Of a stretch of 64,000 nucleotides of DNA, positions 9,203-31,138 are shown piece by piece. Origin of the DNA: Caballeronia sp. NK8 (GTDB taxonomy: Bacteria; Pseudomonadota; Gammaproteobacteria; Burkholderiales; Burkholderiaceae); NCBI RefSeq assembly GCF_018408855.1, contig NZ_AP024325.1:1488001-1552000 (forward strand). The letters are read 5' to 3'. The position numbers and the translations under genes were made by a program. The notes beneath the pieces were generated by a model. That model was not told the DNA's origin and did not search any database. It saw nothing but the letters and a program-made list of their open reading frames with translations. How positions within the stretch are numbered: the stretch's first letter is position 1; every line of letters starts with the position of its first letter.

Positions 9203-9264
9203 CTTCGAGGCGCAGCGGCGGGCGACGAATGTCCGCCTTCACCTCCCCCTCTTGCTAACGCTCA

Positions 9265-9780: not shown

Positions 9781-9870
9781 AGCATCGCCATATTGTAAAG
9801 ATTCAGGCCGTCGCGTTCGGCAGAATCGAGAGAGCATGAAGTTGCCCTCGGTACAGTTGCGACCGGACGA

Positions 9871-13203: not shown

Positions 13204-13803
13204 CTATCGCGCGAACGCGAAGGGCGTCAACCGTTCCGAGACGATGACGTTCGTCAATACACGTTGCAATGGCATTCCTGGAATGCCGGCCGGCACGCGC
13301 GCGCTACGGCGGCTCGTTCCCACCGCCCACAGCAAGGCATGCCACGTCGGCGCCGGCGAAGCCAAACGCCCGACATCTCTTGATTCCCTGCGTGCCAGTA
13401 TCGGCATTGTCACGACACAAACCATTCGGTGCCGCCGGACATCACGCGATACCCTAAACATGATCGGGATTCGACAACTTTGTTGCCATAGCTCGACAGC
13501 CTCGCACAACTGCGCGTCATTCGCGTCAGCGAGCCAGTAAACTTGCAAGCCACCCAGCTGGAGACAGATTTCCATCAGTGTGACGTCGTTGACGTTGAAT
13601 TCGCCAAACGAAAGAGCGGCCTTCTCATACACCGTCCCAAACCACTCGGCCTCGTGCGGCGTCAAGGATCCGACCAACACTGGAGTTTCAGCAGGAAGGT
13701 TGTCGGCTTGCCGAGGCAGAGGATCGAGCGACGACAGCCGAACCAACGACCCGACCGATATACGGCCCACCTCCGTTTCTATAATGCATGTCTCTGCATC
13801 CAT
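13204..13803 (-). CDS. Hypothetical protein
   Basis: This 199-residue protein starts at an ATG preceded by an AGAGG ribosome site at ideal spacing. The sequence is protein-like: an acidic N-terminal half (VGRISVGSLVRLSSLDPLPR, EWFGTVYEKAALSFGEFNVN) and a basic C-terminal half. No signal peptide or membrane span is seen, and no family is recognised. It lies downstream of, and on the same strand as, the BPSL0761/111-residue gene pair (about 170 bp gap) and may be co-transcribed with them. Confidence 0.6.
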   Translation of the reverse strand: MDAETCIIETEVGRISVGSLVRLSSLDPLPRQADNLPAETPVLVGSLTPHEAEWFGTVYEKAALSFGEFNVNDVTLMEICLQLGGLQVYWLADANDAQLCEAVELWQQSCRIPIMFRVSRDVRRHRMVCVVTMPILARRESRDVGRLASPAPTWHALLWAVGTSRRSARVPAGIPGMPLQRVLTNVIVSERLTPFAFAR

Positions 13804-13975
13804 ACCGACCTCTTCTAGTTCGACGGATTAATCTTAGTAGTACCAACTTCTAAGCACGAACTGAGCGTATGATCTGTTCCGACAAATTCCAATGAAGGCC
13901 CAAATTAGGCCAGCAAGTGAGCTAAGCCATCCAACCGACGACCAGCGCATACGAATGGCGGCCCCGAATCCTCGG

Positions 13976-14203
13976 CTATCGGTGACTTCGAGCCGTCATC
14001 TTTTCTGTCTCTGCCCAGACGGCTGGCAACGCAAGTGCGGACTCGTCGATGTCGGCCTGGCTGGGATAGTGCCTGAGCAAGACGATTGCCAAACTTCGCA
14101 CAAGATCTGCGCAATACGGCCCCCGTCCATTGGCGAGAGTTACGAGCAGATCGCGGGCGCCGGCGACTGCTCGCGTCCTTTCTTCAGCCGTGGTCATATG
14201 CAT
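13976..14203 (-). CDS. BPSL0761-family small protein
   Basis: This 75-residue protein has the family's opening EERTRAVAGARDLLVTL and the conserved LRHYPSQADI segment near residue 43. The function of the family is unknown; its members are small, cytoplasmic and restricted largely to Burkholderiales. Its start lies inside the end of the 111-residue gene upstream (20-bp overlap), so the two are translationally coupled. Confidence 0.8.
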   Translation of the reverse strand: MHMTTAEERTRAVAGARDLLVTLANGRGPYCADLVRSLAIVLLRHYPSQADIDESALALPAVWAETEKMTARSHR

Positions 14204-14519
14204 CCCAAGAACTGACCTTCTTACTCAAGTCAAGGTACTCGACAACGCCAGCGAATTGGCACCATCGATCCCAAACGTACTGAGCCTCGTCCGCGTGTCC
14301 GCTTCGACCTTCAAGCATGTAGAAACGGCCGGATTGGGTCGTGCCTTGAAGCGCTTTGGCATCGAAGCTTTCGATTGGGGAGCTCACTCGGCCGGTTCGG
14401 TCGTTCGCATTCAGACCGACAAAATGACGAGTTCGCTGCGGTAAGATTTCAAAGATGCGCCATTTGATTAGGCGGATGCGCGGTTCCTCAGGAACCGGCG
14501 GAAGTGGCCAGATGGGCAT
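14184..14519 (-). CDS. Hypothetical protein upstream of the BPSL0761 gene
   Basis: This 111-residue protein has an AGGGGG ribosome site just before the ATG. The second half (SGRFYMLEGRSGHADEAQYV, then WDRWCQFAGVVEYLDLSKKV) resembles Burkholderia hypothetical proteins often found next to BPSL0761 genes; I know no functional name for them. It overlaps the start of the BPSL0761 gene by 20 bp, showing a two-gene operon. No membrane span or signal peptide is present. Confidence 0.7.
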   Translation of the reverse strand: MPIWPLPPVPEEPRIRLIKWRIFEILPQRTRHFVGLNANDRTGRVSSPIESFDAKALQGTTQSGRFYMLEGRSGHADEAQYVWDRWCQFAGVVEYLDLSKKVSSWDAYDHG

Positions 14520-14734
14520 TATTGCCCCCTATTACAAGACTGACAGGATGCGATCCGGTCAGGCCGCCTAAACCAATAGAAAAGTTATAGGATTTATGTA
14601 CTATCTACCCGCGGCGGCAATATAGAACGAGCGTTAGTGGAATTGTATTTTTTCTGCCCGGAGTTCTGACGAGTGTTTTCCCTGCCAAAGTAATTTTAGG
14701 CTAGTTTGCCGCGAAAACAAGCATCGCGCAAACC

Positions 14735-15280
14735 TCAGAACCGTTCGAGGCAGGCCATGCCCGCTTCTGCGGTTCGCCGCATCGCCTCGGGATCAACGAA
14801 CAGGAATACGCCGTCGAACCGGCAAACAGTCGCGCACTGGAGATAAAGAGCGGCCGTGAAGGTCCCTCGCCTGATCTGCTGTCGGAGAACGCGAGCCGAC
14901 ATAGCAACGCCGATGGTGCCTAGCCGACGCGACAGCTCCTTCACATCGATCCATCGTTGTTCGGCCAGATCGGCGTCCAGGACGGCTGTTGCGCGGGCTT
15001 CCCAAGAATCGCACGAAGAAACGCTTGCCCAATTCGCTGGGCACACGGCACGAGTCGCTGAAACAACCTGAAGCAAGAAGACGAAGCGAAACGTCCCGCG
15101 CTGAATCTTACCCTCGACCGAACGCGCGGACTCTGCCACGCCTCGCGAAGCGAGGGATTTCGCGAGCTGAGCGTACCCCACCCCTTGGCGAGCGAGAATC
15201 ACCCGGACAGTCCTGGACGCGAGTTCCGCCCACACAGCGTCCACCGCAGAGTGCGGTGCTCCTTGATTTTCCGCTGTCAT
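14735..15280 (-). CDS. DUF6471-type protein, paralogue 2
   Basis: This 181-residue protein has two tandem HTH-like units. The first is WAELASRTVRVILARQGVGY with RSVEGKIQRGTFRFVFLLQ, and the second is LSRRLGTIGVAMSARVL with IRRGTFTAALYLQCATVC. It aligns throughout with the protein at 11281-11931, about 3 kb away, but the two are clearly diverged, so this is an old duplication or two separate arrivals. Function is unknown; the repeated basic helix pairs suggest nucleic-acid binding. It is divergent from the HAD-like gene at 15435. Confidence 0.82.
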   Translation of the reverse strand: MTAENQGAPHSAVDAVWAELASRTVRVILARQGVGYAQLAKSLASRGVAESARSVEGKIQRGTFRFVFLLQVVSATRAVCPANWASVSSCDSWEARATAVLDADLAEQRWIDVKELSRRLGTIGVAMSARVLRQQIRRGTFTAALYLQCATVCRFDGVFLFVDPEAMRRTAEAGMACLERF

Positions 15281-15434
15281 GCACTACCCTATGGAGAGTG
15301 AAATCACTCACAGCTGCTACAGTCCTCTCTCTCCAAAAAAAACGTTTTCTCTGAGAGGAACCTTCCCTCGCCGCAAAGCAGGAAAATGGGCCGACCAGGT
15401 CCTCAAAAAACGCGGCCCAGAGAGAACGGTCGCT

Positions 15435-16016
15435 ATGTATCCCATCCTCTACCTTGGCATCGAAGGCGTGCTATTTCGCGCTAGCGTTTGCCGTCATCCC
15501 CTTGCGCGGCGCGGCAGAGAGATTCCTCGCTCGGATCCGCTTCCGTTACTCGGGCTCGTATCGCACATCGTCCAACACCAGACCAATCTCCGAGTAGTTC
15601 TTAATAGTTGGTGGGTAGTCGACTACGGATTCCAACGCCTGATCAGTTGCCTTCCATCGCCCATCGCTCAGCGGACAGTCGGCGCGACCATCCCAGGAAA
15701 TCGCCTACATCGAAAGGTAGCATACCAAGAAAGGGCTGATTTGCTTCGGGCAGACGTGAAGAAACGCGAGCCGACAGAGCTAACTATCTTGGATGCTTCG
15801 CGTGCTGCCATACCCATCGAATATTTGAATCGCTCGGTTTGGGTGCGCGGAGATCACACGGCGCATGTTAACGAATGTGCATCTAGATTACTGCATCTTT
15901 TGAATTACACCGGTCCAATCGACAACGAATCAAAGATTCCGAAAACAAGATCGCTTGGCTCGACTACTGGCTCGCCCGATGGCGAAGCCAATACGATAAC
16001 GATGGTATCTGTATAG
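15435..16016 (+). CDS. HAD-like (Swiss-Army-Knife HAD type) protein lacking the catalytic Asp pair
   Basis: From the ATG at 15435 this 193-residue protein follows the HAD_SAK-type layout: an N-terminal strand MYPILYLGIEGVLF, then LNSWWVVDYGFQRLISCLP and QRTVGATIPG, which match the LSTSWVxxxGF...RVVGAT pattern of that family. Active members have DFDG in the first motif, with two Asp residues for phosphoryl transfer. Here the motif reads GIEG (residues 8-11), so the nucleophile and acid/base are both missing. It is either a non-catalytic relative or has lost function. The longer frame upstream (from 15279) has no family support. The stop is followed by an AT-rich gap that may include the start of the transposon. 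Confidence 0.7.
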   Translation: MYPILYLGIEGVLFRASVCRHPLARRGREIPRSDPLPLLGLVSHIVQHQTNLRVVLNSWWVVDYGFQRLISCLPSPIAQRTVGATIPGNRLHRKVAYQERADLLRADVKKREPTELTILDASRAAIPIEYLNRSVWVRGDHTAHVNECASRLLHLLNYTGPIDNESKIPKTRSLGSTTGSPDGEANTITMVSV

Positions 16017-16716: not shown

Positions 16717-17070
16717 ATGGATCACTCGACACTGCAATTGCGTCACGAATGGTTTGCGGAGGCCCAGTACTGCCTGGACGCGTACATGCGTTTGTACTTT
16801 CTTCGACGGAATAGGTTCGACCCAAATACCCTTGCAACTTTTCTCCAAGGACTTCGGGACATTCCGACGCAGCGAGACTATGTCTACGACCATGCGTACA
16901 AGGCCCGTCGACAACCGCTTCCCTATTGGATTACCGGCCAGCGACGGCGAATGATCGAAGCAGACAGATTGCTTGCAAAGCAATTCGTGGAAAAGTTGGT
17001 AGCGAACTACAACGCGCCGAGATTCCAAAGATCGACCTTTGGTCGCATTCGCGAAATGAACCGATCCTGA
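16717..17070 (+). CDS. Hypothetical protein upstream of tnsA
   Basis: The start at 16717 (MDHSTLQLRHEWF) follows a clear AAGGAG ribosome site at 16704-16709. The frame is open further upstream, but that part is not protein-like. The 118-residue product is rich in aromatic and basic residues (EWFAEAQYCLDAYMRLYFLR, YDHAYKARRQPLPYWITGQR) and probably helical. It has no recognised family. It points towards tnsA, 200 bp away, so it may be the first gene of the transposon operon, for example a small regulator; this is inference. Confidence 0.65.
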   Translation: MDHSTLQLRHEWFAEAQYCLDAYMRLYFLRRNRFDPNTLATFLQGLRDIPTQRDYVYDHAYKARRQPLPYWITGQRRRMIEADRLLAKQFVEKLVANYNAPRFQRSTFGRIREMNRS

Positions 17071-17274
17071 AGCCCTTCTACCAGCTGACCGTTGAATACG
17101 GAGAGCCGCGCGGCGGCTCTCTCCTTGGTCGACCCCGCGCTTGAATATCGCGCCGCGTCGAGTCTTTTAGCTCGCGCCTTGTGGCCGGGGGGACTCATGG
17201 CACGCCACCGAATAGTACTGAAAAAGCTTGCAGCGCTTCTTCTTGGACGCCGCCGGCGAATTGCGGAGGTAATC

Positions 17275-18078
17275 ATGCCGAGATTCAGGTATTCAATGAC
17301 GTTTGCCAAGCAGAAGCGCTTTAACCGAGAGCTTCGCGGTAAGGGCGAGGGAGCTGACTATCGTCCTTGGCTCACTGTTTCTGATGTTCCGTCCCGAGGC
17401 AGGTCGCATCGTCTTGCCTGCGCAAAAACCGGCTTTAGAACAATGCACTTTTTATCCGACCTCGAGTACGCAGCTTTCCTCGAAGCCTGGTGGGACGAAT
17501 TCGTCAGGGATATTCGCGAACAATACCCCATCGACCTCAAGGCCACCCTTGCGATCGCTTGGAACCTCAATGTCAAGCATCCGGTAGACCCTCGAACCGG
17601 CCTTCTTCTCACTCAAACGACCGACTTGCTGTTGACAAAAAGAGCCGCTAGCGTGGCGCCGAGTTACGCAGCTTGGGCCGTCAAGAGCCGCCAGCAATTA
17701 ACCGAGAAGCGGACGTTGGAAAAGCTCGAGATCGAACGCCGCTACTGGGAAAGCCGCGGCGTTCCTTGGACCCTGGTCATAAGCGACGGGCTCAATTCGG
17801 CTCGGGCGTTGAACCTCGATTGGCTCTTCAACTTCGAATTGGCTCTACGCGGTAACACTCGCGTAGACCAAGCGTGTGTCGCACGGGTACTTGCTGCGAC
17901 TCGTAAACGGCGTGCCGAACCTGCCTCTCTCGTGTGCCGCCACCTCGACAGGCTTTGGCTGACTGAAGGCGGTGCTCATCTCACAGCGTTTCGCTTCCTG
18001 CTGTTCGCGAGAGTTCTGAAGTGCAGTTTGAATGTAGGTACGTTTGCCGACCAACCTCTTTGCTCATTCACATCATGA
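17275..18078 (+). CDS. tnsA: TnsA-like transposon endonuclease
   Basis: This 267-residue protein is the TnsA subunit of a heteromeric Tn7-like transposase, which cuts the 5' strands at the transposon ends. The start at 17275 has GGAGG seven bases upstream. Catalytic positions can be read: Glu64 in DLEYAAF, Asp117 in TTDLLLT and Lys137 in AVKSRQ, close in spacing to E. coli TnsA Glu63/Asp114/Lys132. The C-terminal domain (LEIERRYWESRGVPWTLVIS, then NLDWLFNFE) would contact TnsC. The restriction-endonuclease core looks intact, so cut-and-paste transposition is expected. The gene leads the tnsABC operon and its end overlaps a relic of a second tnsB. Confidence 0.92.
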   Translation: MPRFRYSMTFAKQKRFNRELRGKGEGADYRPWLTVSDVPSRGRSHRLACAKTGFRTMHFLSDLEYAAFLEAWWDEFVRDIREQYPIDLKATLAIAWNLNVKHPVDPRTGLLLTQTTDLLLTKRAASVAPSYAAWAVKSRQQLTEKRTLEKLEIERRYWESRGVPWTLVISDGLNSARALNLDWLFNFELALRGNTRVDQACVARVLAATRKRRAEPASLVCRHLDRLWLTEGGAHLTAFRFLLFARVLKCSLNVGTFADQPLCSFTS

Positions 18079-18317
18079 ACACAACCTACTTCCTCAAACG
18101 CAAGCACCAACCGCGCGAAGGCCAGGAGCTTCAGAGTCCGCGACATGTGATTCTCTACACCGGTATCGCCGATGTAAATCTTTACTTTCGCTTCGATCGC
18201 ACAGTCATTGTAGGGAGACCCGCTGTCTACCTGGCGATCGACCCCTTCAGTCGCCTCGTACTCCGACACTCCGTCCGATTCGAGCCGAAATGTGGAATTC
18301 CTGACCGATCTCTTTGA
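18075..18317 (+). pseudogene. Relic of a second, divergent tnsB
   Basis: This 80-codon frame begins like the real tnsB (CACATCATG followed by MNTTY, versus MDTTY in tnsB). It then jumps to a piece of the integrase core: GIADVNLYFRFDRTVIVGRP followed by AVYLAIDPFSRLV and RFEP. The matching part of intact TnsB is TIADAYLLSIFDRISLVGRP, IYFAIDLFSRLI and GFEP. The first catalytic Asp context (IDAT) is missing and everything between the N-terminus and the core is deleted. The two copies are too different for a recent duplication. The frame starts inside the tnsA stop region and stops just before tnsB. Confidence 0.75.
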
Positions 18318-18355
18318 TAGCGACGCGTTCGCCGCTACCAACTCCTCCTCACATC

Positions 18356-20617
18356 ATGGATACCACCTACTCCCCACCTGCACTAGCGGTCGGAATGCTG
18401 CTGCGGGACCCTACCAGCAAAGCAGTTTATCGAGTCGTCACTCCGGAAGGAGCCGGCCAGTTCGTCGCCCTTTACGACATCGGCAAAGGGCAGAACACCT
18501 GGCCCGAGCCGATATCCGCAGATGAGATCCGTCGGCGAATGGACCCGAGCGGACCGTCGGAGGACCGGCTTACCGTAGAAGCCGCTGACCCCTGGTCGTT
18601 GGAAAACCGGCCGCCACGGTCAGGATATGATCAAAGTCGGTTGGACAGCGATTGGCATCTCATCGAAGCCCTCCTTACGAGGCCGACTGCGTTCCGTCTC
18701 ATGCTCCCCAAGTACCGAAACGGCATACTGAACGAGCACGCTCGACTGAACCACACAACGCGGCAAAAACTTACTCGTCTGCTTAGGCGGTATTGGCAGC
18801 GCGGTCTGACCCGTTCGGCACTCATGGACGATAGAAATCTGTGCGGGGGCAAAGACAAAGTCAAGATCTTCAAGAATGCAAAAAGCGGAAGGCGTCCACG
18901 AAACAACTATCCTGGCCTGCCTCTTAACGAGATCGCACGTCAGATATTTAATCAGGCTGCTGATTGGCTCTTACAGGACTGGAAGCATAGGACTTACCGA
19001 GAAGCGTTAGAAGAATACGCTGCGAAGTTCTGTGTCGGAAGAACGGCTCTGGATGCGCGAGGTCGAAAAATCGCTATCCAAGCCACCGATCGAAGATTCC
19101 AGCCGACCGCGCGACAACTGCAGCATCTCGTGCTGCGGTGGCGCCCCCACGCCGTTGTCAAACGCTCCAAGCTCGGAAAGCGAAAGTTCGAACTGATCGG
19201 GCGCGCCTTCAATGGCCGGGCGGACCAACATGTGACCTGCCCTGGTTACGCAGTTATCGACGCCACAATAGCCGATGCTTACCTTCTTTCCATCTTCGAC
19301 CGGATTTCCCTCGTCGGGCGGCCGACCATTTATTTCGCCATCGACCTGTTCAGTCGCCTCATTGTAGGGATCTACGTCGGATTCGAGCCTCCTTCGTGGG
19401 TCGCCGCCATGATGTTACTGACCAATGTCGTAACACCGAAGGTAGCCTATTGCGCGCAATTCGGAATAACAATCTCCGAGGATCAGTGGCCGTGTCATCA
19501 CATGCCGACAACACTGTTCGGTGACAAAGGCGAAATGATGAAGGTACGCGCAGGGCAACTTCTCAGCAGTGAGTTTGGCATCCACATCGAAAACGCGCCG
19601 TCGGGCAGGCCAGACGCCAAATCGATCGTGGAACTGCGTTTTAACACCATCCAGCGTCCATGGGGAGCCTTCATGCCGGGCTACGTCGACAGGGACTACG
19701 ATGAACGTGGTTCTCGCGACCCTCGTCAAGATGCCGCACTGACCTTGTACGAATTCACCCAGATCATTATCTTGGCCGTCCTGCGGCATAACGCAGCACC
19801 GATTTCGGACTTTCCACCCATTCCCGATTTGGTTGCTGAGGGCGGAGCGCCCACTCCTCTCGAACTCTGGGACTACGGGATTTCCTCAACAGGCGGGCTC
19901 CTTAGAAATGACTCTGTCGAAACTGTTCGACGGTACGTGCTTCCACGCGAAAGAGCGACTGTAACTCATAAAGGGATCGAGTTTGGCAAGTATTACTACC
20001 TTTGCCCAGCGGCAAGAGACGGCGACTGGCTCATCAAGGGACGCGACGCTCGATGGACCGTGGAGATCGCATTTGATCCAAGCAACCTTGATTGTATCTA
20101 CCTGTGCGAAGACGGCCGGTTCGAAAAGTGCACAAAAGCCGGGACCAACTCAAAGTACGTTGATCGTGAAGGGGTTTCAATGGCGGAACGTAATGTTCTC
20201 GAGGACCGGCAGAAGGCAAATCTTGAACGCGCGAAGGACGATGACTTTGCATTTAGGGTGAGCGCAAAGGAGATTGACAACAAAATTGTTAAGGAAGCGG
20301 CCAAGAAGACGAAGGAATCGTTGAAAGAAGCGGGTCTTCGCAAGCCTCAAGTCTACGATTTACGCAAAACACGCGAACGCGAGCGCGCCGCGGAGCGTGA
20401 GCATCTGACGGATGTCGAAGCCGATTTTATCGCATCTGTCGCCGACGAACGTAAGTCACGCTCGGACCTTCACTTCAACCAAATTTCGAAGCAGCGCGGC
20501 GCTGCAAGACGCCGCATAACTTCCTCAATGCGCGCTCATCAACAAGCCGCAGTAGAAACTGTGCGCATGAGCAGGAAGAGCAAGACCTTAGACATTCTCA
20601 AGCAAATTAGGAGGTAA
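18356..20617 (+). CDS. tnsB: TnsB-like DDE transposase
   Basis: This 753-residue protein is the DDE-type transposase that binds the transposon ends and performs 3' cleavage and strand transfer. It has an N-terminal DNA-binding region with basic helices (TRQKLTRLLRRYWQRGLTRS), the integrase core and a Mu-type C-terminal barrel. The triad is complete: Asp302 (IDATIAD), Asp390 (LFGDKGEM) and Glu426 (SIVELRFN), with 88 and 36 residue spacings as in E. coli TnsB. The charged, Lys/Arg-rich tail (from about residue 620) is where TnsB proteins contact TnsC. A TTG start at 18314 is also possible. tnsC follows two bases after the stop. Confidence 0.93.
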   Translation: MDTTYSPPALAVGMLLRDPTSKAVYRVVTPEGAGQFVALYDIGKGQNTWPEPISADEIRRRMDPSGPSEDRLTVEAADPWSLENRPPRSGYDQSRLDSDWHLIEALLTRPTAFRLMLPKYRNGILNEHARLNHTTRQKLTRLLRRYWQRGLTRSALMDDRNLCGGKDKVKIFKNAKSGRRPRNNYPGLPLNEIARQIFNQAADWLLQDWKHRTYREALEEYAAKFCVGRTALDARGRKIAIQATDRRFQPTARQLQHLVLRWRPHAVVKRSKLGKRKFELIGRAFNGRADQHVTCPGYAVIDATIADAYLLSIFDRISLVGRPTIYFAIDLFSRLIVGIYVGFEPPSWVAAMMLLTNVVTPKVAYCAQFGITISEDQWPCHHMPTTLFGDKGEMMKVRAGQLLSSEFGIHIENAPSGRPDAKSIVELRFNTIQRPWGAFMPGYVDRDYDERGSRDPRQDAALTLYEFTQIIILAVLRHNAAPISDFPPIPDLVAEGGAPTPLELWDYGISSTGGLLRNDSVETVRRYVLPRERATVTHKGIEFGKYYYLCPAARDGDWLIKGRDARWTVEIAFDPSNLDCIYLCEDGRFEKCTKAGTNSKYVDREGVSMAERNVLEDRQKANLERAKDDDFAFRVSAKEIDNKIVKEAAKKTKESLKEAGLRKPQVYDLRKTRERERAAEREHLTDVEADFIASVADERKSRSDLHFNQISKQRGAARRRITSSMRAHQQAAVETVRMSRKSKTLDILKQIRR

Positions 20618-20619
20618 TC

Positions 20620-22251
20620 ATGGACTTCCATCCAAATCTCGACACCGAAGAGCAAGCTCAGGAAGACGCTTCGACGTCTGACCTGAAGTTCGTCGACGCC
20701 ATTTACGTGCCCCGCGATGAGGATCTTGGAGTCGACAATCCGCTGATTCGATCTCTTCCCATCTACATCAACTCCGAATCAGTTCTGGAGGCATTCTCAA
20801 ACGCACCACAGTTCTGTCTAACCGACCGGCAACTGCCAGCTAGCTCCCGGATTCAGAGAGTCGCCTCACTCGGAACCTACTTTGATTCGCTGACATGCCA
20901 TCCCACTCTTATCGACTCAATCTTTCGGCTAATCATCGAGGGATATATGTGGCGCAATCCCTGGGACCACTCGCAGGAGGTCATCCGGTCGCGCTATGCC
21001 GCGTCGATGGGTAAAAAAACGATGACCCCTGTGCTCCCGTTCCGACCGGCGCACTCGGCCGTCATGGCCCTGACCGGCGTATCCGGGGTCGGAAAATCGA
21101 CATCCGTATATCGCACGCTTTCTTTCGTGCCGCCCGTGATTCGTCATGAAAGGCTCGCGGGCAGCAACCTTCAGGTCGTGTGGCTCAAAGTAGATTGTCC
21201 GCCGGACGGAAGCATCAAGCAACTTTTTCGGTGGATTTTGATTGAATACGACCGCCTGCTCGGCACCCACTATGAGCAAGAAGTTGGCAAGGCGGCTCGA
21301 CTGGACCAGCTGATGAACAAGGCCGCTGCTGTCGCACGATACCATCACACCGGTCTGATCGTCGTAGATGAAATCCAGTTTGCGGCTAGGGGAGCGGCAA
21401 GGCGAGGTGATCCCTTCATGGATTTCTTCGTAACGTTCACCAATATTGCGCAGATCCCGATGTTGGTCACCGGCACTCCACAGGCTCGACCCTTGATGGA
21501 AAAGTCTTTCCGCCTGGCACGCCGAGCCTGTGATCGTGGGTCGATGACCTTCACAAACATGGCATTCGATGACGAATGGCATTTCTTCCTTCGCGGGCTC
21601 TTCAAGTTCCAGTGGACATCCAAAGTGCAGCGCTTCAACAGCGACTTCAGCGAGGAGTTCTACGATCTGACGCAGGGCATACATGCTCTCGTGATGCGAC
21701 TTTTCCAGTTCACGCAGATTGTCGCTATCCAAGATCAGAGCGAGAAGATCTCTAAGCCGCTCCTGCGCTATGTCTCTAAAGAATGGCTCGGTCCCGTCCA
21801 ACCGATGCTTTCTGCGTTGAAAAGCAAGAAGAAGAATCGCATCGAGATTTATAACGATCTCCTTGTGGACACGCTAGCCGGGCTTGAAGACGCCGTAAAC
21901 AAGGAAGCGGAAGATGCGAAGATCGCCGAGGCGAGAGAGCAGCGTCAGCGAAATCAGGCGAAGTTGGCATCAGTGTCCGATCTCGTGGCTATGGGTGTCC
22001 GTGAGGCCAAGGCGCTCGTCGCAGTACTCGAGGTCCTAAAAGTTGCGCCTACTCTCACTGGAACGGAGCTCACTCAGGCAGCGTGCGAAAAAGCTGGCGT
22101 GACCTTCGACGCTAATCTCAGCTCAAGTCAAGATGACCTTCCATCTCTCCAAGACATCGTCGGAGATACCAAGGATGCCGACGAAGCGGTGGAGAAGTTA
22201 CGACTGGCTGGCTACGTTATCGGGACCCGAGCGCACGCTGAGACCGCGTGA
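20620..22251 (+). CDS. tnsC: TnsC-like AAA+ transposition regulator
   Basis: This 543-residue protein is the AAA+ ATPase that links target selectors to the TnsA/TnsB transposase. Walker A is GVSGVGKST (residues 153-161) and Walker B is LIVVDEIQFA (246-255). TFTNIAQIPMLVTGTPQARP is the sensor-1 region. The N-terminal 130 residues correspond to the TnsB/TnsD contact region, and the C-terminal 150 residues to the TnsA-interacting tail. A GGAGG ribosome site sits just before the ATG. It belongs to the tnsABC operon and is followed by two tnsD-type genes. Confidence 0.93.
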   Translation: MDFHPNLDTEEQAQEDASTSDLKFVDAIYVPRDEDLGVDNPLIRSLPIYINSESVLEAFSNAPQFCLTDRQLPASSRIQRVASLGTYFDSLTCHPTLIDSIFRLIIEGYMWRNPWDHSQEVIRSRYAASMGKKTMTPVLPFRPAHSAVMALTGVSGVGKSTSVYRTLSFVPPVIRHERLAGSNLQVVWLKVDCPPDGSIKQLFRWILIEYDRLLGTHYEQEVGKAARLDQLMNKAAAVARYHHTGLIVVDEIQFAARGAARRGDPFMDFFVTFTNIAQIPMLVTGTPQARPLMEKSFRLARRACDRGSMTFTNMAFDDEWHFFLRGLFKFQWTSKVQRFNSDFSEEFYDLTQGIHALVMRLFQFTQIVAIQDQSEKISKPLLRYVSKEWLGPVQPMLSALKSKKKNRIEIYNDLLVDTLAGLEDAVNKEAEDAKIAEAREQRQRNQAKLASVSDLVAMGVREAKALVAVLEVLKVAPTLTGTELTQAACEKAGVTFDANLSSSQDDLPSLQDIVGDTKDADEAVEKLRLAGYVIGTRAHAETA

Positions 22252-22416
22252 AGCCAGGATTTTGTCTGTCGTCGAACCGGGCGCGTGGGAGAAGGGCCAC
22301 CCACCGCTCCTTTCGCGACAATGGTGCAAAGGCTTCGTCGGTCATGCTCGTTGGACGTTAACGCATCGATCGAAGGCAACGCGTGCCTTTTATAACCATG
22401 GTGCGGGAGGTGAACC

Positions 22417-24219
22417 GTGTCAATCGCCCTGCCTTTACCCTATGACGAAGAACTGCTCTTCGGCGTCCTTGCACGCTACCTGGAAGCGGCGGATATTCCC
22501 GCTCCGACATTTGTAATAGACACGTTGTTCGGGCGACTGGCGCATCCAAAAAAGGAGTTGATTTGCAGCTTGGCCGAGTTTTCTAGGCAGACCCATGTCG
22601 CCTGGGGGCTTCGACCTCTCGAAATCGCGCACCGACACACGGTGGTTCCGTACTACGCAAGCTACACCACAGCGGCACGTCGCACCGCCGCCTACGCCGG
22701 CATTTCAGGACAAGAAGGTACATCACCGGCCGTCACCTTGCGTGTGAACCACTCAAACGTCGCGCGCGTTGATCACCTTCGATGCTGCATGCGCTGTGCG
22801 ATGTCCGACGTTCTCGAAGGACGACGTCCGTACTGGAGGCGAGCACACCAGTTGCCCGGTGTGTTCACCTGCCCAAAACACGGCACGATTTTGTGCGTCG
22901 CCGAAGCTGAAAACGGCGGCGGACCGGTGAAATGGCGCCCCGTCGTCGACGACACCATTGACTGGAGGGACAACGTGCATGTACGTGCCGTGCAGACAAC
23001 ATCCATTGAAACACTTGCAGCGCGCGACTCGGCCTGCTCGTCCCCTGCTTTTGAGACAAACTGGTTGGCCGTCGCTCACCAGAGGGGTTTCGTTAAATCC
23101 AGCGGCTACATTGATACTGGCGCTCTGTTGTCGAAAATGAACGATCTCTACGGAAACGCCTATCTGGGAGCTACACGCTTGAATATCGCTTGGAAGCAGA
23201 GCGCGTCGTGGGTTGTGCGACTGTTGAAAAGCCCGCACACGTTATTCCATCCGTTGCAGTACATCCTGATGGCGAATCTACTTCAGCAATGTGAGGGACC
23301 TAACCCAAGGACAGAGGTCACTCCGAAGCTTCGCACAAATCAGCCCATCGTCTGCCCGAATAGCTACGCGGCACACGAACGCCAGCATGTCGTTGATGAA
23401 GTCAGGGTGACCGAAACCACTGACCGCCAGCAGGTCGCTCATGGTCGTTGTAGTTGCGGCGTCCGTTTTACTTTTTTGAGATGTGAACCGGACGGGAAGA
23501 CTCCATGCGACCTGCAGATAACGAAATACGGTCATGATTGGGCAAACGCGGTACGCGCAATGCATGGCCAAGGACACTCGTACCCAGCGATCGAACGCAG
23601 CATGGGTCTTCCGCCAAGGGCAGCGCTGCGAATGTCGAAGCGGCCAGGGGACCGGAAGCAATCGAAACCGACGCCTGCCCAATTGCTTCAGTGCCGGCGC
23701 GAATGGAGACAAACGCTGCGCAAGGTGGCCCCAGGGGGTCATCTCCTCGCCGCTCAACGTAACAAGCTTCTCTACAACCGCCTACGAGAATTCGATCGCG
23801 ATTGGCTTACAAGGTCCGCGCAACGTCGATGCCAGCCACGGCGAAAGGCTAGCGAAATGGAATGGAAGCGCCGAGACCGCGAGTGGCGCACTCGGCTGGA
23901 GACAGCTGCGGCAAAGCTCCGGGGATTGGACTCACCGGCGGTACGTGTGAGCAAGGCCGCGATGGCCGCTGAGGCCGGCGTATGGGTGCTGGGCGCAAGC
24001 GTCCGGGACAAGCTCCCGTTGTGCCATGCCGCCTTACGGGACCTTGCGGAGTCAGCGGAGCAATTTCAGATACGCCGGCTCGAAGTCGCGCGGATGAGAC
24101 TCTCCGCATGCAGCCAAGAAGTTACACGGTGGAAGCTTCTCAAGCTTGCAGGCATTTCCAGAGCATTGAACCCGATCGTGGAAGCAGCCCTGGCGAAGCT
24201 CGTACCTTGTCACGAGTGA
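22417..24219 (+). CDS. TnsD/TniQ-type target selector 1
   Basis: This 600-residue protein opens with the TniQ signature (ALPLPYDEELLFGVLARYLE). It carries a zinc-finger of the TnsD type with Cys124-x-x-Cys127 and Cys152-x-x-His155 (CCMRCAMSD, TCPKHG), joined by YWRRAHQLPGVF, the family's core motif. The C-terminal half is basic and helical and should read the attachment site. It starts at a GTG with GGAGGTG upstream. TnsD proteins recruit TnsC to a fixed chromosomal site. A second, different selector follows, so this element may use two sites. The target gene of either cannot be told from the sequence. Confidence 0.9.
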   Translation: MSIALPLPYDEELLFGVLARYLEAADIPAPTFVIDTLFGRLAHPKKELICSLAEFSRQTHVAWGLRPLEIAHRHTVVPYYASYTTAARRTAAYAGISGQEGTSPAVTLRVNHSNVARVDHLRCCMRCAMSDVLEGRRPYWRRAHQLPGVFTCPKHGTILCVAEAENGGGPVKWRPVVDDTIDWRDNVHVRAVQTTSIETLAARDSACSSPAFETNWLAVAHQRGFVKSSGYIDTGALLSKMNDLYGNAYLGATRLNIAWKQSASWVVRLLKSPHTLFHPLQYILMANLLQQCEGPNPRTEVTPKLRTNQPIVCPNSYAAHERQHVVDEVRVTETTDRQQVAHGRCSCGVRFTFLRCEPDGKTPCDLQITKYGHDWANAVRAMHGQGHSYPAIERSMGLPPRAALRMSKRPGDRKQSKPTPAQLLQCRREWRQTLRKVAPGGHLLAAQRNKLLYNRLREFDRDWLTRSAQRRCQPRRKASEMEWKRRDREWRTRLETAAAKLRGLDSPAVRVSKAAMAAEAGVWVLGASVRDKLPLCHAALRDLAESAEQFQIRRLEVARMRLSACSQEVTRWKLLKLAGISRALNPIVEAALAKLVPCHE

Positions 24220-24321
24220 CTTGTCACGCATAAGTGGATTGCAGGATGAGCGTTACTGCATTGTGCTCGCCGCCAAACATGGACTTCAAAAGGACATCGC
24301 CGTACGTTAAGGAGTAGCATC

Positions 24322-26295
24322 ATGACTGTTGCTCTACCGGTACCTTACGATGATGAACTCCTATTCAGCGCTATCGCTCGGTACTTCGCTTCTGTAGCGG
24401 TTCTCAACAATTACTCGAATTGCTATCCGGTGATGCAGGGCCTGTTCGAAAGGTCATCCGCACCAAAGGCGGATCTGCTTTTCAATCTATCGAGGGTGGC
24501 GTCTGAAACGAGCGCGGCGTGGAGACTGTCGGCGAAAGAAATTGCCTATCATCACACACTTCTGCCCTACTTCCTTAGCTATCTACCTTCCGAAAAACAA
24601 GAAGCTGTACTCAATGCGGCGTTCGGGACAGGAATTCCCACGTCTTATGCGCTCCTAGGTCATTTCAACTCGGCCGTGAAGCGGGTCTCCCTGCTGCGTG
24701 TCTGCCCCGCTTGCATCCAAGAGGACCGCCAACGGTGCGGTGAAGGCTACTGGCGACGTGCGCATCAACTGCCAGGGGTCTTCGCATGCGTTAAGCACAA
24801 TCTACCGCTCAGAGTTACTCCGGTGAACGTTGACTGTGATGGTGGCAAAGTCATTTGGACGACGGCTGAACACGCATTTAAAGAGTCCGCCCCTGCTGTG
24901 AGCGACCTAGGCAAAGATTGGCTGAAAGACGATACTCTGATGAAGGTAATGAAGGCCTCCGTAAAGTTGCTTTACGAGCCACCAGGAAACTATGGCAAGA
25001 CTAGCTACGAGAATTACCTTGCCCGTGCCGAGCAGGCCGGCTTCGTCAACATTCGCGGGTGGTTGAAGACAGAGGCGTTCTCCGCTTCGGCAACCGGCTG
25101 GTTCAATGCCGGGTATCTTAAGAAGGTGGGACTGAGCACAGGTAAATGGGCGGTCCGCATGCTGACGTGCGAGGCTAAGAAGCAAGTCTTTCAGCCACTT
25201 GAGCATGTTCTGTTAGAGCACTTTTTTGACGGTATCGAATCATCGAATCAGGCCCTGGCCCATCGATTAAGACCACCGCCTAGTGAAGACGTCGCGGTCT
25301 GTCCGAACCGGCTCGCTGCCCATCGACGCGGCCATCGGATGGACCATGTCGCTATAAAGTACAACGCTGACGGCTCGTTCGTCGGAACTGGACGATGCGC
25401 TTGTGGTGTTAGCATCCGCTTCTCGCGGTTCAAACGTGGAACCCGTGAGCCGGTGATTGATCGCTTTTACAGCTTGGGGGAGCATCCGCGGAACGCAATC
25501 ATCAAATTGCGCGATGAAGGAGCGTCGCTCGGCAGCATCTCGGACCGGTTGGATGTTCCCAAAGCAAAGATTCAACATGTCATCTACACAAACACAGCGA
25601 AAGCCAAACGCTTGAGGTCGTACGCCGGAATAAGCCCACGCTACATTCGAAGCTTGCGAAAGGAATGGATGGATATTCTCAACTCAGTGGACGGCGCGCA
25701 GGCCGGGCTCGCGAGGCAGCAAAGCCCCCAAATTTACGAGATCCTGCGGAGGCACGATGCGAGATGGCTCATTGACGTAACGGAGAGCAACACGTTGGAC
25801 CGCAACGACGATCGATGGCGCGAGCGCGACGAACTATCCGTTTCAGCACTGATTGAAGCTAAGGAGCGTCTTCTCTCCGCGAAGCCCCCGATACGCGCAA
25901 CTCGAAATGCTATGACACGGGAAGTCGGAGTGTGTTGGTATTTATTTAACGCAGGGCGAATGCCACGCGGAGCGGCTGCCCTCGAACAGCTTGAGGAATC
26001 TTGGGAGGAGTTTCGGATACGTCGCCTGTGGATCGCAGCACAAAATATCGTTCAGCGCGGTCTGCCGCGGACCCGTGCGAAGGTTTTGCATCTAGCGTCA
26101 GTACGGTTGAAAGACGTTACTCCGGCGATCGAAAGTGTAGTGGATCAAATCATTGGCGGGTTCGCTGGAGACGCGGGCCCAAGCGAGGCTCCATCCTCTT
26201 GCGTTTTGCCGACTGCCTCGAATACCTGTCCGGCAACCCAGGGGGCAGCATCGGACTATAGATTGCCGCGACTGCGGAAACATAGAACAGCGTAG
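24322..26295 (+). CDS. TnsD/TniQ-type target selector 2
   Basis: This 657-residue protein is homologous to the preceding one: ALPVPYDDELLFSAIARYF at the start, zinc ligands Cys128-x-x-Cys131 and Cys156-x-x-His159, and the shared YWRRAHQLPGVF. The C-terminal halves match less well, as expected if the two read different DNA. It has its own AAGGAG ribosome site, 100 bp after the first selector. Two selectors in one element resemble Tn7-like elements that pair a home-site selector with a second pathway, such as the type I-B CAST elements, but no CRISPR array or cas gene is seen here. The last 30 residues are low in similarity to anything in the first selector. Confidence 0.9.
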   Translation: MTVALPVPYDDELLFSAIARYFASVAVLNNYSNCYPVMQGLFERSSAPKADLLFNLSRVASETSAAWRLSAKEIAYHHTLLPYFLSYLPSEKQEAVLNAAFGTGIPTSYALLGHFNSAVKRVSLLRVCPACIQEDRQRCGEGYWRRAHQLPGVFACVKHNLPLRVTPVNVDCDGGKVIWTTAEHAFKESAPAVSDLGKDWLKDDTLMKVMKASVKLLYEPPGNYGKTSYENYLARAEQAGFVNIRGWLKTEAFSASATGWFNAGYLKKVGLSTGKWAVRMLTCEAKKQVFQPLEHVLLEHFFDGIESSNQALAHRLRPPPSEDVAVCPNRLAAHRRGHRMDHVAIKYNADGSFVGTGRCACGVSIRFSRFKRGTREPVIDRFYSLGEHPRNAIIKLRDEGASLGSISDRLDVPKAKIQHVIYTNTAKAKRLRSYAGISPRYIRSLRKEWMDILNSVDGAQAGLARQQSPQIYEILRRHDARWLIDVTESNTLDRNDDRWRERDELSVSALIEAKERLLSAKPPIRATRNAMTREVGVCWYLFNAGRMPRGAAALEQLEESWEEFRIRRLWIAAQNIVQRGLPRTRAKVLHLASVRLKDVTPAIESVVDQIIGGFAGDAGPSEAPSSCVLPTASNTCPATQGAASDYRLPRLRKHRTA

Positions 26296-26317: not shown

Positions 26318-26830
26318 TTAAGTTCCAAAGGTGCTCGGGCTTGACGTCCTCCCGGCCCTAAAGGACCGGGATTCCTTTAGCAAGACGGCCACGTCCGGCC
26401 GCGAGATTGGTTGATGCGAGGCCGTCCTGCAATCCCGCGCCGCCGGCGCGCCATGCCTTCCCAGTAGCGAGGATGTTCCGGGCGCGTTGACGTCTCGCTC
26501 GTGATTCGAGCCGCAGGCTTCGCATCGCCATTCTCTTATCCCAAGACCTGCGATACCTTTCGGCCCCGTGCGGCTGCTGCAGCACGAACAGGTCTGGGTA
26601 GAAAACGCTTCATTGACTTCCTCGAACCACACGCTGGCGTCAGCGCACTTGTACTGCAGCATGGTTCGGAACGCGCGCCGGCTCCAGGTCGCGATGAAAA
26701 CGATGAGCCTCGACCTTGGATCCGTCGCTTGCTGTCAGGAAATCTTTTAAGCCCAGGTCAATGCCGATGGCCGTCGTCCCCCCGGGAGGCCGCCGGTCGC
26801 TTCGGGCGACGGTGCCGTGCGCCGATTGCC
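26318..26830 (-). pseudogene. Broken tnpB (RuvC pieces with internal deletion)
   Basis: The minus strand holds fragments of a TnpB RNA-guided nuclease. AIGIDLGLKDFLTASDGSKV, near 26720-26780, is the RuvC-I segment with its Asp. After HRFHRDLEPA the frame breaks and jumps to YKCADASVWFEEVNEAFSTQ, the zinc-ribbon CSCCSSRTGPKG and CEACGSNHERDVNA, near 26480-26660. The middle of the protein is deleted and the end runs into an unrelated frame. At 26354-26373 a CCCGG..CCGGG hairpin has the form of the element's right end, where the omega RNA would end. No intact tnpB or tnpA is present. It was probably an insertion in the transposon cargo that later decayed. Confidence 0.85.
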
Positions 26831-26976: not shown

Positions 26977-28698
26977 ATGGGCTGGGGCTTTCGAAAGAGC
27001 ATCAAGGTCGCACCGGGAATCCGCATCAATCTCAGCAAGAGCGGAGTCAGCACCTCAATTGGCGGAAGGGGATTCACGTACAACGCGCGCGGCCGCGTAA
27101 CGACGAGCATTCCCGGCACTGGAATACGGTTCACACATAACCTGAGAGGCGCGCGGACGTCGCGCCCTGTCAGCTCAGTCCTAACAGCAAGCCGAAGCCT
27201 TGATGCGGACGGCTCGGCGCGCCTATCAAAGCGCGAGCAGGCGACGCAAGAGTTCGTGGTCAAGGTCCAGGAGCGCACCGCAAGCGCACTGGTCGACTAC
27301 TTTTTCTCTCACGGCGTTTATGTGCGCGCCGAGGACCTGAGCGATGCCGTGACCCTGGAAACGCATCAGGACTTCCTGCAATCGCTCTCACGGGAGACTG
27401 AGGCCACGACAGACGCTATCCGGCTAGCCGTTGACATCGGCTGGATCTCCCTTGCCGAGAAAGAGAAAGCGATGCGGGCGGTGTATGCGATAGAAAAGCA
27501 GTGCTCTGAGCATCAGGGCTCAAGAGCGGAGCTGAGCCAGGCGTCGTCGGTCCTGCTTACCGCAGTACGCAGCTATCCTTCGGCGCCTGCCCTGGTAAGC
27601 CCGCTCATCATCGGATTGGTGGGTGCTTTCATAACCTACGCGGTCAGTATCGGGGCTGGCCTAGGGTTGACCGCCCTCGCCCTACTGTACGGTTACGTTA
27701 ACGCATCAAAATACCTTCGCCAGCGCAACGCGACATTGACCAACGTCGAAGCCGCGGACCAATACTTCGACTCATTGCTCACCGACGAAGTCACACCCCG
27801 CCCCTCGCTTCTAGTCGGCCGCGACATTGTCCGCCCAAAGGCAATCGGTTTTGCCGCGGTAACGCTGGTTGCGACCTTGTGCGCTATCGTAACGCAATTC
27901 TCGCATCCGATTCGGACCGTCGCCGATACCGTCGAGTCGGACGCTCCCAGCCCTGCCGATACCGCCCGTACGCCTTCTCCGGTACCTCTCGCGGGAATGC
28001 CGACCACCGGCCTTTCGTGGATGGCCGGCAAGTATCCGTACGATGTCGTGAACGACCGGCGGTTCAGGGCGGCCTTCCAGGGAGTCTCTCGGGCCGATTG
28101 GAAAAAAATTGCCGACCGGCTGACCGTCGTCAATGAAGCCGGAATCCAGTCGAAGGACGGCTACCTAGTGGGTGAAGGCTGCAAGGCTCACGAATGCAAT
28201 TCCGAGAAGGCAGCGTTCGCTATCAATGAGAGCACTGGCAAAGGCGTGCTCATAGTGATGGAGACGCCGGGAAGCTCTCCCATCTTCACAACGTACCGCT
28301 GGGAGCAGCTGACCATCGGCCAAACTCCGCTGGCAGCCTGGAAGCAACAGCAACTCGCCGATTCGGTCAGTGTGTCATCGACGTCCTCGTCAGGCTCCCC
28401 CACCGATCCAGCAACCCCGACCTTCGCAGCAAGCTTCGACTGCTCCAAAGCGCGCTCGGATGCTGAGCATCTGATCTGCAGTGACGCAGAGCTTGCCGCC
28501 GCCGACGTCGATTTGGCTGCGATCTACGCGAGGGCGAAAGCAGCCGCGATGGACCAGACGGCTTTCCGCGAACGCACGCGCGCAGAGTGGAACTACCGTG
28601 AGCAGACCTGCCACGACCGTGAGTGCGTAACTCGTTGGTACGCTGACCAGAAGGTAGCGCTCAACGAGATTGCGGCGACGGGAAATGTCGGCCGGTGA
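26977..28698 (+). CDS. DUF4236 membrane protein with C-terminal LprI-like domain
   Basis: This 573-residue protein is a fusion. Residues 1-56 are a DUF4236 domain (MGWGFRKSIKVAPGIRINLS, then SIPGTGIRFT). A middle part has two hydrophobic spans (ALVSPLIIGLVGAFITYAVS and IGFAAVTLVATLCAIVTQF). The last 85 residues are an LprI/DUF1311-type domain with its cysteines (FDCSKARSDAEHLICSDAEL, EQTCHDRECVTRWYADQKVA). The LprI domain is named from a mycobacterial lysozyme inhibitor, but most family members are untested. The topology suggests the C-terminal domain is in the periplasm. A GAGGAG ribosome site supports the start. It is the first cargo gene after the transposition module, 110 bp before the KAP NTPase gene. 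Confidence 0.8.
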   Translation: MGWGFRKSIKVAPGIRINLSKSGVSTSIGGRGFTYNARGRVTTSIPGTGIRFTHNLRGARTSRPVSSVLTASRSLDADGSARLSKREQATQEFVVKVQERTASALVDYFFSHGVYVRAEDLSDAVTLETHQDFLQSLSRETEATTDAIRLAVDIGWISLAEKEKAMRAVYAIEKQCSEHQGSRAELSQASSVLLTAVRSYPSAPALVSPLIIGLVGAFITYAVSIGAGLGLTALALLYGYVNASKYLRQRNATLTNVEAADQYFDSLLTDEVTPRPSLLVGRDIVRPKAIGFAAVTLVATLCAIVTQFSHPIRTVADTVESDAPSPADTARTPSPVPLAGMPTTGLSWMAGKYPYDVVNDRRFRAAFQGVSRADWKKIADRLTVVNEAGIQSKDGYLVGEGCKAHECNSEKAAFAINESTGKGVLIVMETPGSSPIFTTYRWEQLTIGQTPLAAWKQQQLADSVSVSSTSSSGSPTDPATPTFAASFDCSKARSDAEHLICSDAELAAADVDLAAIYARAKAAAMDQTAFRERTRAEWNYREQTCHDRECVTRWYADQKVALNEIAATGNVGR

Positions 28699-28809
28699 CA
28701 GCTCTGTCCCGTCGGTCGCCGAAGTTTGTATCCGCGAGCGTAAGTGGTTTTACGCCAGCGATGAGTTCGACAAGCGATCGCACCCCGAAGAAAAGCGTGA
28801 CTCTCCACG

Positions 28810-31071
28810 ATGAAAGGCATGAACAACGAAAATAGAAACGCTCAGGTGGACGAACCCACGCTGGAGAACTCCTTGGGAAGCGACGCGCCACAAATACACC
28901 CCTCCCTTGATGAGTTCGGCTACGCGCCCTTCGCTCGCGCAATTGCTCGGGCCGTCCGAACCACTCCGAGCCCGAAGGGCTTGGTCATGGCAGTCGACGG
29001 ACCCTGGGGAGCCGGAAAGACAAGCTTACTCAACTTCGTCGCGCACTATCTGACTGAGGCTAACGCACCGCTTGCCGGTGGGCTCGTGAGCGATACGCCG
29101 GTCATTGTCGCCTTCAATCCGTGGTGGTTCGCTGATGGCGAGCAGCTCGCAATGCAGTATCTAAGGCAAATTCGGGCGCGCTTTCCGTCAGAGAATGCGA
29201 AGCTCATGGCCGTCGCAGACACGTTCGCAGAGTACGCCGACACCATCGGTTCGGCAGTCGAAAAAAGCATCGCCACGACGGGCTTCGCGATTCCCCTGCT
29301 AGGACCGGTTATCTCATGGCTTCTCAAGAAGTTCCGTCGTGCGGACAAAGACATTCCCACACTGAAGGCCGAAATATCGAAGGCGTTGAATCAATCAGGT
29401 GTCCGATTCGTCGTCTTTATCGACGACATCGATAGACTCGCGCCCGATGAGGTCCGTGAGGTATTCAAGGTCATCAAAGCGGTCGCCGACTTTCCGAACG
29501 TCGTATACCTCTTGGCGTTTGACCGGAAACTGGTCTCCGGCTCGTTGCAAGCCTCCCTTGGAATAGACAACGGCGATGCTTATCTTGAAAAGATCGTGCA
29601 GGCGCAGTTCGTCTTGCCTGCAGTTTCACATGAGCTTCTCATTCAGAAGCTGTTACGAGACCTCGATCGCCTCATCGGTACACCGGGGGACGATGAGTTT
29701 CCCGTGGATCCGGCGCATTGGGCCAACGTGCTTCATGACGGGCTGGCGTCGCTCGTTCAAACCCCTCGGGACGTCGTGCGTGTAGTCAACGCGCTCATGG
29801 TCACCTTCCCTTCAGTTCGCGGTGAAGTGAATCCGGTTGATTTTATTGCAATCGAGTTTTTGCGTGTCTTCGTTCCCGCGGCATATGCAGTCATACGTGA
29901 CAACAAAGAGAAGTTCACCGGAGTATCGGATCGCGGAAATCGCGATGAAATGGAGCGATTTCACGATGGCTGGCTTGAGTCAGTGGCAATCAAAGACCGT
30001 GGTTCAGTCAAATCGCTAGTCAAGCGCCTGTTTCCCCGCCTTCAATTCGTGTGGGACAATGTTTCATACGGTGAGAATTCACTTCGCAGATGGAGCGCAA
30101 AAGGCTTAGTGTGTACCCCCGAGAAATTCGACCGATACTTCCAGTTCAGCGTCGCCCCTGACACCCTCAGCGAACGGGAAATTCGTGCCTTCGTAAATCT
30201 CGGCGACAACGTAGATGCGCTCGCGAACGCATGGCTCGAGGCTTTCGAAGTTCGCCGCGCCGCCGGCACATGCAAGGCCAGTGACCTAATCAACGCCTTG
30301 CTTGATTTCGACGACCTTCCTGAGCCGTTCGCTCTCGCGTGCACTGAGGCTTTCTTTCGAGTCGGGGATACATTTATAGCCGACCCGCGGAACTCGCTAC
30401 CCGGATTTTTCAGCGTTCACGCTGACATTCAAGCCTTCTGGTTGATCAACCATCTCGCCGCCAGAATCCCGGACGAGTTGCGAGAAACTACATTCATCCG
30501 TCTCGCTCGCGATGGTGACGCGTTGGGAGTCGCCCTACGCCTCACGTACAGCATCACCGGGCTCACGCGGCCAGATGCGACCCAGCGGGACTCCATCTTT
30601 CAGACGTTCGCGCCTGAGGCCGTGCAGCAAATGAAGGATGCGGTGATCGCGCGCGTGCGTCACGCCGCAGAGAACAATACGCTCACCGCCCTACCGGATG
30701 TATACCTCGCATTACTCGCTTGGAGCAATTGGGTTGATGTCGCCGCGGTTCAAAATTGGCTCGAAGGCGCTCTGCGAAACGACGACACGCTGCTTAAGTT
30801 GTTGGTCGAGGCACGCCAGATTGGAACCTCTCATACGCTCGGGGAGCACACGTCACGTCGCATTGTTTCCATAAATCCCAAGACTATTGGGCAGTACCTG
30901 CCGCCGACTATCAGCCTCGAGGACCTATCCCGCCGCGTTCAGGAGGTTAGCGCTCGTCGAACTCTCAGCGATGGCGAGACTGAGGCAGTTCGCGAATTTG
31001 CACGAGGCATGGAGGAGCTCCTGAAAGCCGCGTCATCTCCTGATGATGCAACAGCGCCGGAAAAGCCATAG
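28810..31071 (+). CDS. KAP-family P-loop NTPase
   Basis: This 753-residue protein has the KAP NTPase pattern: Walker A GPWGAGKTSLL (residues 64-74), the following VIVAFNPWWFADGEQLAMQY element, Walker B VVFIDDIDRLAPDEVREVFK and VVYLLAFDRKLV. KAP proteins often have membrane helices inserted in the NTPase; here a single hydrophobic stretch (GFAIPLLGPVISWLL, about residue 165) is the only candidate. The C-terminal 400 residues are helical with no known domain. KAP NTPases occur in defence islands and in plasmid and phage exclusion, but no reaction has been fixed. The neighbours (Gabija, RES toxin) suggest defence, by association only. A second Met (residue 4) may be the true start. Confidence 0.85.
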   Translation: MKGMNNENRNAQVDEPTLENSLGSDAPQIHPSLDEFGYAPFARAIARAVRTTPSPKGLVMAVDGPWGAGKTSLLNFVAHYLTEANAPLAGGLVSDTPVIVAFNPWWFADGEQLAMQYLRQIRARFPSENAKLMAVADTFAEYADTIGSAVEKSIATTGFAIPLLGPVISWLLKKFRRADKDIPTLKAEISKALNQSGVRFVVFIDDIDRLAPDEVREVFKVIKAVADFPNVVYLLAFDRKLVSGSLQASLGIDNGDAYLEKIVQAQFVLPAVSHELLIQKLLRDLDRLIGTPGDDEFPVDPAHWANVLHDGLASLVQTPRDVVRVVNALMVTFPSVRGEVNPVDFIAIEFLRVFVPAAYAVIRDNKEKFTGVSDRGNRDEMERFHDGWLESVAIKDRGSVKSLVKRLFPRLQFVWDNVSYGENSLRRWSAKGLVCTPEKFDRYFQFSVAPDTLSEREIRAFVNLGDNVDALANAWLEAFEVRRAAGTCKASDLINALLDFDDLPEPFALACTEAFFRVGDTFIADPRNSLPGFFSVHADIQAFWLINHLAARIPDELRETTFIRLARDGDALGVALRLTYSITGLTRPDATQRDSIFQTFAPEAVQQMKDAVIARVRHAAENNTLTALPDVYLALLAWSNWVDVAAVQNWLEGALRNDDTLLKLLVEARQIGTSHTLGEHTSRRIVSINPKTIGQYLPPTISLEDLSRRVQEVSARRTLSDGETEAVREFARGMEELLKAASSPDDATAPEKP

Positions 31072-31138
31072 GGCCAATCGAGTCGCTCACGCAATTGCAC
31101 TTGCGGAGTGAACGCGCTGCGATGCGGTCGTATGGTAA

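Follow-up and report, generated by a model that had tools for sequence, protein, structure and literature searches.

The presence of two selectors of the TniQ/TnsD family in one Tn7-like transposon is an established arrangement. According to Parks and Peters (2009; as cited in PMC3384475), two tnsD genes are common; the role of the second TnsD was already a question then, and non-specific targeting was proposed for one of the two. A 2012 article described a TnsABCD1D2 cluster in Cupriavidus metallidurans CH34 and listed B. phymatum as another carrier (PMC3384475), and a later survey counted 998 dual TniQ/TnsD loci and 50 with more than two such genes vs 2,905 single ones, naming pairs of two tnsD genes and inferring in-clade duplication for dual loci in general (Faure 2023, PMC10293859). 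In this work, we analyzed a 64,000-nucleotide stretch (hereinafter the window; C4:1488001-1552000) of the 9.2-Mb genome of Caballeronia sp. NK8 (G000), which carries the core of a Tn7-like transposon encoding two full-length TnsD proteins, here termed D1 and D2, of which D1 probably selects the home site and D2 an alternative target elsewhere. A preliminary description of this DNA had regarded the two-selector set as unusual, a view not supported by the 998 published dual loci, the C. metallidurans precedent and our own sampling, in which 8 of 15 places are dual (see below). The arrangement is already known, and this element is a very large example of it with a well-defined home site: its 159 kb exceed the maximum of 140 kb reported for the longest of 6,549 Tn7-like transposons in the survey of Benler 2021 (PMC8649781).

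The C. metallidurans island CMGI-E likewise has two distinct tnsD genes, has no tnsE and is not at attTn7, and its Tn7 genes are inferred to have once formed a single group at one extremity of an island of 120 kb that carries aromatic-compound degradation genes (PMC3384475); its TnsD pair matches D1 and D2 at about 24–26% identity. Unlike CMGI-E, in which tnsC is interrupted by an insertion sequence and tnsABC is split from tnsD1D2 by a large inversion, the present locus has an intact core and both of its ends are mapped. The dual loci of Faure 2023 (PMC10293859) are also tandem homologous selectors linked to one tnsC, but their second protein is usually substantially smaller, whereas the two proteins here measure 600 and 657 amino acids. 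With Tn7 (TnsABCDE) the element shares TnsABC, TnsD, the 5-bp duplication and a home selector of the TnsD family; it differs in having a second TnsD, a site beside nap rather than glmS, termini beginning TGA and a tnsA lying 137 kb from the far end of the element. Finally, the CRISPR-associated transposons with TniQ and TnsD (I-B, I-D, and Tn7017) resemble it in possessing two TniQ-family proteins, there for two pathways, but no CRISPR (clustered regularly interspaced short palindromic repeats) array was found in the present island and both of its selectors have a long C-terminal region.

The core genes follow the order tnsA-tnsB-tnsC-D1-D2, all on the plus strand (window 17275–26295). TnsA (17275–18078, ATG at 17275; Pfam PF08722, TnsA_N), the DDE transposase TnsB (18356–20617; PF09299, Mu-transpos_C), and, between tnsB and the selectors, the AAA+ regulator TnsC (20620–22251; AAA_22 and TniB) were aligned to the solved Tn7 proteins 1f1z (E=8e-39), 7pik (E=4e-72) and 8glu (E=6e-52), respectively, the reference residues of which we take to have the catalytic roles assigned to them in Tn7. 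Given the above starts, E64/D117/K137 of TnsA and D302/D390/E426 of TnsB fall opposite these positions, and TnsC displays the Walker A motif GVSGVGKST and the Walker B motif LIVVDEIQ. The Tn7-like core is real and intact, and the earlier assessment of tnsA, tnsB and tnsC as complete by motif is borne out by these alignments.

D1 (22417–24219, plus strand, 600 amino acids), the proposed home-site selector, and D2 (24322–26295, plus strand, 657 amino acids), the proposed alternative selector, both match the Pfam profiles PF06527 and PF15978 (TniQ and TnsD) and both align to the N-terminal part of Tn7 TnsD (8glu_X; D2 E=4e-12, D1 E=2e-11). A domain-by-domain alignment agrees with their initial portrayal as homologous yet clearly different TnsD-type selectors: both are full-length, their C-C-C-H zinc ligands are intact and invariant across 20 aligned homologs, and their identity, 30% overall, falls from 39% in residues 1–165 to 22% in residues 166–300 and 16% in the presumed helix-turn-helix (371–420 of D1). 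In a tree of 24 TnsD proteins, the D1 proteins of this element and of its nearest relative found, in Caballeronia catudaia LMG 29318 (G006; TnsA, TnsB, and TnsC 79, 79, and 85% identical), are sisters (100/99) and are joined by the first selector of P. phymatum (100/98); the D2 proteins lie inside the same six-row group (96/97) and are not resolved as sisters. Because the D1 and D2 proteins share this group, the pair appears to stem from a duplication within its own clade.

The ends of the element were located by comparison with 11 flank stretches from genomes of the same genus. Three of these (G023, G002, and G004) match the right flank of the window from exactly 39545 onward, and in all three the site is contiguous and free of the element; in G023, the left flank of the empty site corresponds to C4:1365756-1368183 and the right flank to C4:1527545-1527713. 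The element spans 159,362 bp, from about window −119816, some 120 kb to the left of the window, to 39545, and may be composite in origin. Its terminal inverted repeat begins TGATGAYGCRCAA, and its right terminus (39528–39545, minus strand) carries the terminal repeat TGATGATGCGCAAAAGAG, read inward. At the left junction GAGCTTG is followed by TGATGACGCGCAAAAAAG, and at the right junction GCGCATCATCA is followed by GCTTGG; the 5-bp target-site duplication GCTTG (39546–39550, plus strand) has its partner copy at C4:1368179-1368183 and is referred to the empty site in G023. Across the 188 kb examined, the terminal repeat recurs without mismatch at only the two end positions, with three other places showing three substitutions each. 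The transposon core had at first been placed at 16717–26295; the five core genes do lie there, but a separate small open reading frame (ORF) begins at 16717, with tnsA starting at 17275, and the mapped element extends far beyond both limits. Repeats of GTTAAC at about 16.0 and 39.1 kb, considered as TnsB sites or ends, were set aside because the empty-site comparison places the ends elsewhere.

The C. catudaia element, which ends on two contigs and is hence known only to be larger than 48 kb, occupies the same site with its insertion point one base away and its own duplication, TTTGG, such that a 5-bp duplication and inverted terminal repeats are established in both elements. The simplest reading is that of two independent insertions at one preferred home site. 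The far ends of both share some sequence just inside the termini, the best block having 76% identity over 388 bp. The site falls inside codons 3–5 of a 143-amino-acid ORF starting MPTKLEF, which has no Pfam match, upstream of the napEDABC operon and beside a nitronate monooxygenase gene; the latter was checked with Pfam, and the nap gene names are a reading of the sequence. The frame of this small gene extends a short way into the element end in both cases, and since an in-frame TTG stands ahead of the nearest stop in each (in NK8 18 codons and in C. catudaia 5 codons upstream of the junction region), a start for the interrupted gene may be kept after insertion. In the NK8 genome, the nap operon of C. 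catudaia and some relatives is missing beside the right terminus (window 39714–39811), where 35 bp (39732–39766) that match the napD end remain, directly followed by the nitronate monooxygenase region.

These features set the element apart from Tn7 proper. Its site, next to nap and nitronate monooxygenase, is the beginning of a small gene and not the region downstream of glmS, and whereas the termini of Tn7 proper begin TGT (as quoted in PMC10702557), all four ends examined in the two elements begin TGATGA. The TnsE profile PF18623 had no match in the NK8 genome, and the same profile was also without a match in 14 control genomes. Searches of the 188 kb for an exact 20-mer repeated three times at array spacing found no CRISPR array, in line with the absence noted at the outset, and no Cas effector other than a TnpB-type fragment was found among the 47 of 137 predicted island genes scanned (with Pfam, and for 8 of the 47 also with PADLOC).

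By analogy with Tn7, we propose that the element would move by cut-and-paste, with TnsA and TnsB as the transposase, TnsC as an AAA+ matchmaker and a TniQ-family selector bringing it to the target. D1 would recognize the home site on the chromosome, where the small gene beside the nap operon begins, and recruit TnsC through its TniQ domain, leading to insertion with a 5-bp duplication. D2, as a second complete selector, would use the same TnsC to send the element elsewhere, and its target has probably changed between lineages. We assign the home site to D1 because both elements sit at the same site and D1 is the better conserved selector, with 50% identity between this element and that of C. 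catudaia as opposed to 33–35% (about 34%) for D2. In 40-column windows, the D1 pair peaks locally at 58–60% approximately where the D2 pair drops to 18–20%, namely in the presumed helix-turn-helix. Substitution frequencies at codon positions 1/2/3 are 0.39/0.30/0.62 in D1 and 0.53/0.42/0.67 in D2, and the third-position excess with a second-position minimum looks like the pattern of genes kept as proteins.

Several observations weigh against this division of roles. Both mapped elements (n=2) lie at one site, where the preliminary description had suggested two separate home sites, and the second target of D2 is argued from sequence divergence. That description had named a single site combined with a broken or missing selector as grounds for rejecting its reading; the site is indeed single, yet each of the two mapped elements keeps both selectors unbroken. 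The contrast in the presumed helix-turn-helix is weak and the region was chosen post-alignment: 10/52 positions are identical there in the D2 pair vs 84/241 in the rest of the C-terminal half (p=0.03), and 27/50 vs 116/244 in the D1 pair (p=0.44). Moreover, the D1-like protein of P. phymatum is without its C-terminal half, with the second selector being full-length.

The foremost alternative, though we think it unlikely, is that D1 and D2 act together at one site, as a heteromer or with one as an adaptor, in a single targeting pathway. It would fit the use of one site by two elements that each keep two selectors, and in the dual loci known so far the partner of TnsD is usually a TniQ of substantially smaller size (Faure 2023, PMC10293859). 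However, D1 and D2 both carry the whole TnsD C-terminal region and neither resembles a short adaptor; further, elements with a single TnsD exist in related families (6 of 15 places by BLAST at E ≤ 1e-3, where a too-diverged second selector would be missed). Less probable still is a reversal of roles, with D2 reading the home site and D1 being the variable selector: site use by itself is silent on which protein reads the site, and it is the D1-like protein that is truncated in P. phymatum next to a full-length second selector, but at one and the same site D2 shows only about 34% identity, and low values in the presumed DNA-reading segment, where D1, at 50%, is locally high. That one selector is redundant and drifting toward loss is very improbable, for although none of the five proteins has diverged as far as D2, and in P. 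phymatum the first selector is truncated and tnsA split, in two species both D1 and D2 retain uninterrupted reading frames of about 600 codons, with zinc ligands kept and substitutions concentrated at third positions.

A more speculative, and in our view unlikely, extension of the favored assignment of D1 to the home site and D2 to another target is that D1 is tied to one chromosomal home and D2 changes fast, with each lineage replacing it or turning it to a new target, and gives the element access to other replicons. If true, D2 would do by protein alone what TnsE or CRISPR targeting does in other elements. A piece of a recombinase gene common on many plasmids, found beside the P. phymatum core, is a hint in this direction and no more. 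Together, the two elements supply a defined home site that was apparently entered twice independently, termini at known positions and a candidate reader, and the question of the second TnsD thereby becomes testable with two proteins and one site.

We also compared the two mapped elements at four-fold sites, the sets of which differ from gene to gene. Differences amount to 0.17–0.22 in three chromosomal flank genes, 0.13–0.23 in three cargo genes (FadJ, 8194+, and 9871−), 0.41–0.70 in six genes upstream of tnsA and 0.51–0.63 in tnsA/B/C; D1 (0.71) and D2 (0.78) are at the top of the range, with the upstream gene 14735− (0.70) equaling D1. The core and the upstream block are more diverged than the chromosome and some of the shared cargo, which module exchange at the shared site would explain. 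Because the cargo at window 1880–10801 has 84–94% DNA identity to the C. catudaia contig over longer blocks vs 76% for the transposition core, its closer relationship suggests exchange between elements or a composite history.

The third element of the clade, on P. phymatum pBPHY01 (L022 16562–24760), has a tnsA split over two frames, a first, D1-like selector of 338 amino acids and a second of 617. A search for the terminal inverted repeat in 150 kb of its sequence gave one place with two substitutions and no ends were assigned; a paired target-site duplication search returned numerous pairs of equal quality, which we attribute to chance, and three genomes sharing its flank gave no ends on comparison either. 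A 178-bp piece of a tyrosine-recombinase gene adjoins the core side, and relatives of this gene occur in 165 plasmid-collection records; no matching second half of the fragment was found in the 150 kb, and P. phymatum was not among the fragment matches listed (best 12 of 144 records).

Among 398 Burkholderiaceae genomes, TnsC matches at E ≤ 1e-60 were recovered at 15 places in 14 genomes. Two TnsD genes follow tnsC at eight of these (G000, G006, G004, G076, G105, G303:C40, G321, and G370), with both proteins longer than 430 amino acids in every case (script-chosen starts); six have the single TnsD mentioned above, and at the last (G051) the contig ends too early. With a TnsC profile, 399 genomes of the order yielded only NK8 and the distant G076 at E ≤ 1e-80, and 369 genomes of the class only NK8, and no further relative, at E ≤ 1e-90. 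Of two contig-wide genome scans for relatives, one found none and the other C. catudaia. Plasmid relatives comprise six records for D2 and four for D1, none close except P. phymatum. The terminal inverted repeat occurs with at most one mismatch at 12 places in 9 of 58 genomes of the genus; by eye, only four, in NK8 and C. catudaia, resemble element ends, although one other place, in G026, matches exactly.

Since 137 kb separate tnsA from the far end, most of the cargo is upstream of tnsA and not beyond the selectors. Of 28 genes sampled from the island start to window 4023, 20 have a Pfam match and 8 do not; 16 of the 20 belong to transport and catabolic families, among them TctA, BKACE, molybdenum hydroxylase subunits, GMC oxidoreductase, CoA ligase and FadJ-type proteins, and one is an IS3-type integrase core. 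A 1,579-amino-acid island ORF (L098 1612–6348, minus strand) gave no Pfam hit (E ≤ 0.001). In the stretch from D2 to the right terminus (26977–38679), Pfam and PADLOC identified a DUF4236 protein (26977–28698), a PifA-like KAP NTPase (28810–31071), a HEPN/RES protein (33656–35029), and Gabija-type GajA (35318–37159) and GajB (37156–38679). Directly behind D2, a 114-amino-acid ORF (26318–26662, minus strand) has a Cas12f/TnpB-type TNB domain and is apparently a remnant. Just 5′ of tnsA, the small ORF mentioned above (16717–17070, plus strand) has no Pfam match and is conserved at the 65% level in C. catudaia and weakly so in P. phymatum, and between tnsA and tnsB lies a tnsB-derived fragment (18068–18317, plus strand), also present in the C. 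catudaia element, in which the start of tnsB is joined to the region of about TnsB residues 280–345. An accessory block upstream of tnsA (13204–16016), with homologs likewise placed in C. catudaia and P. phymatum, comprises genes at 13204–13803 and 14184–14519 (both minus strand), a DUF6471 gene (14735–15280, minus strand) and a HAD_SAK_2 gene (15402–16016, plus strand). A DUF6471 paralog is encoded at 11281–11931 (minus strand), and it and the copy at 14735–15280 both match one single P. phymatum gene.

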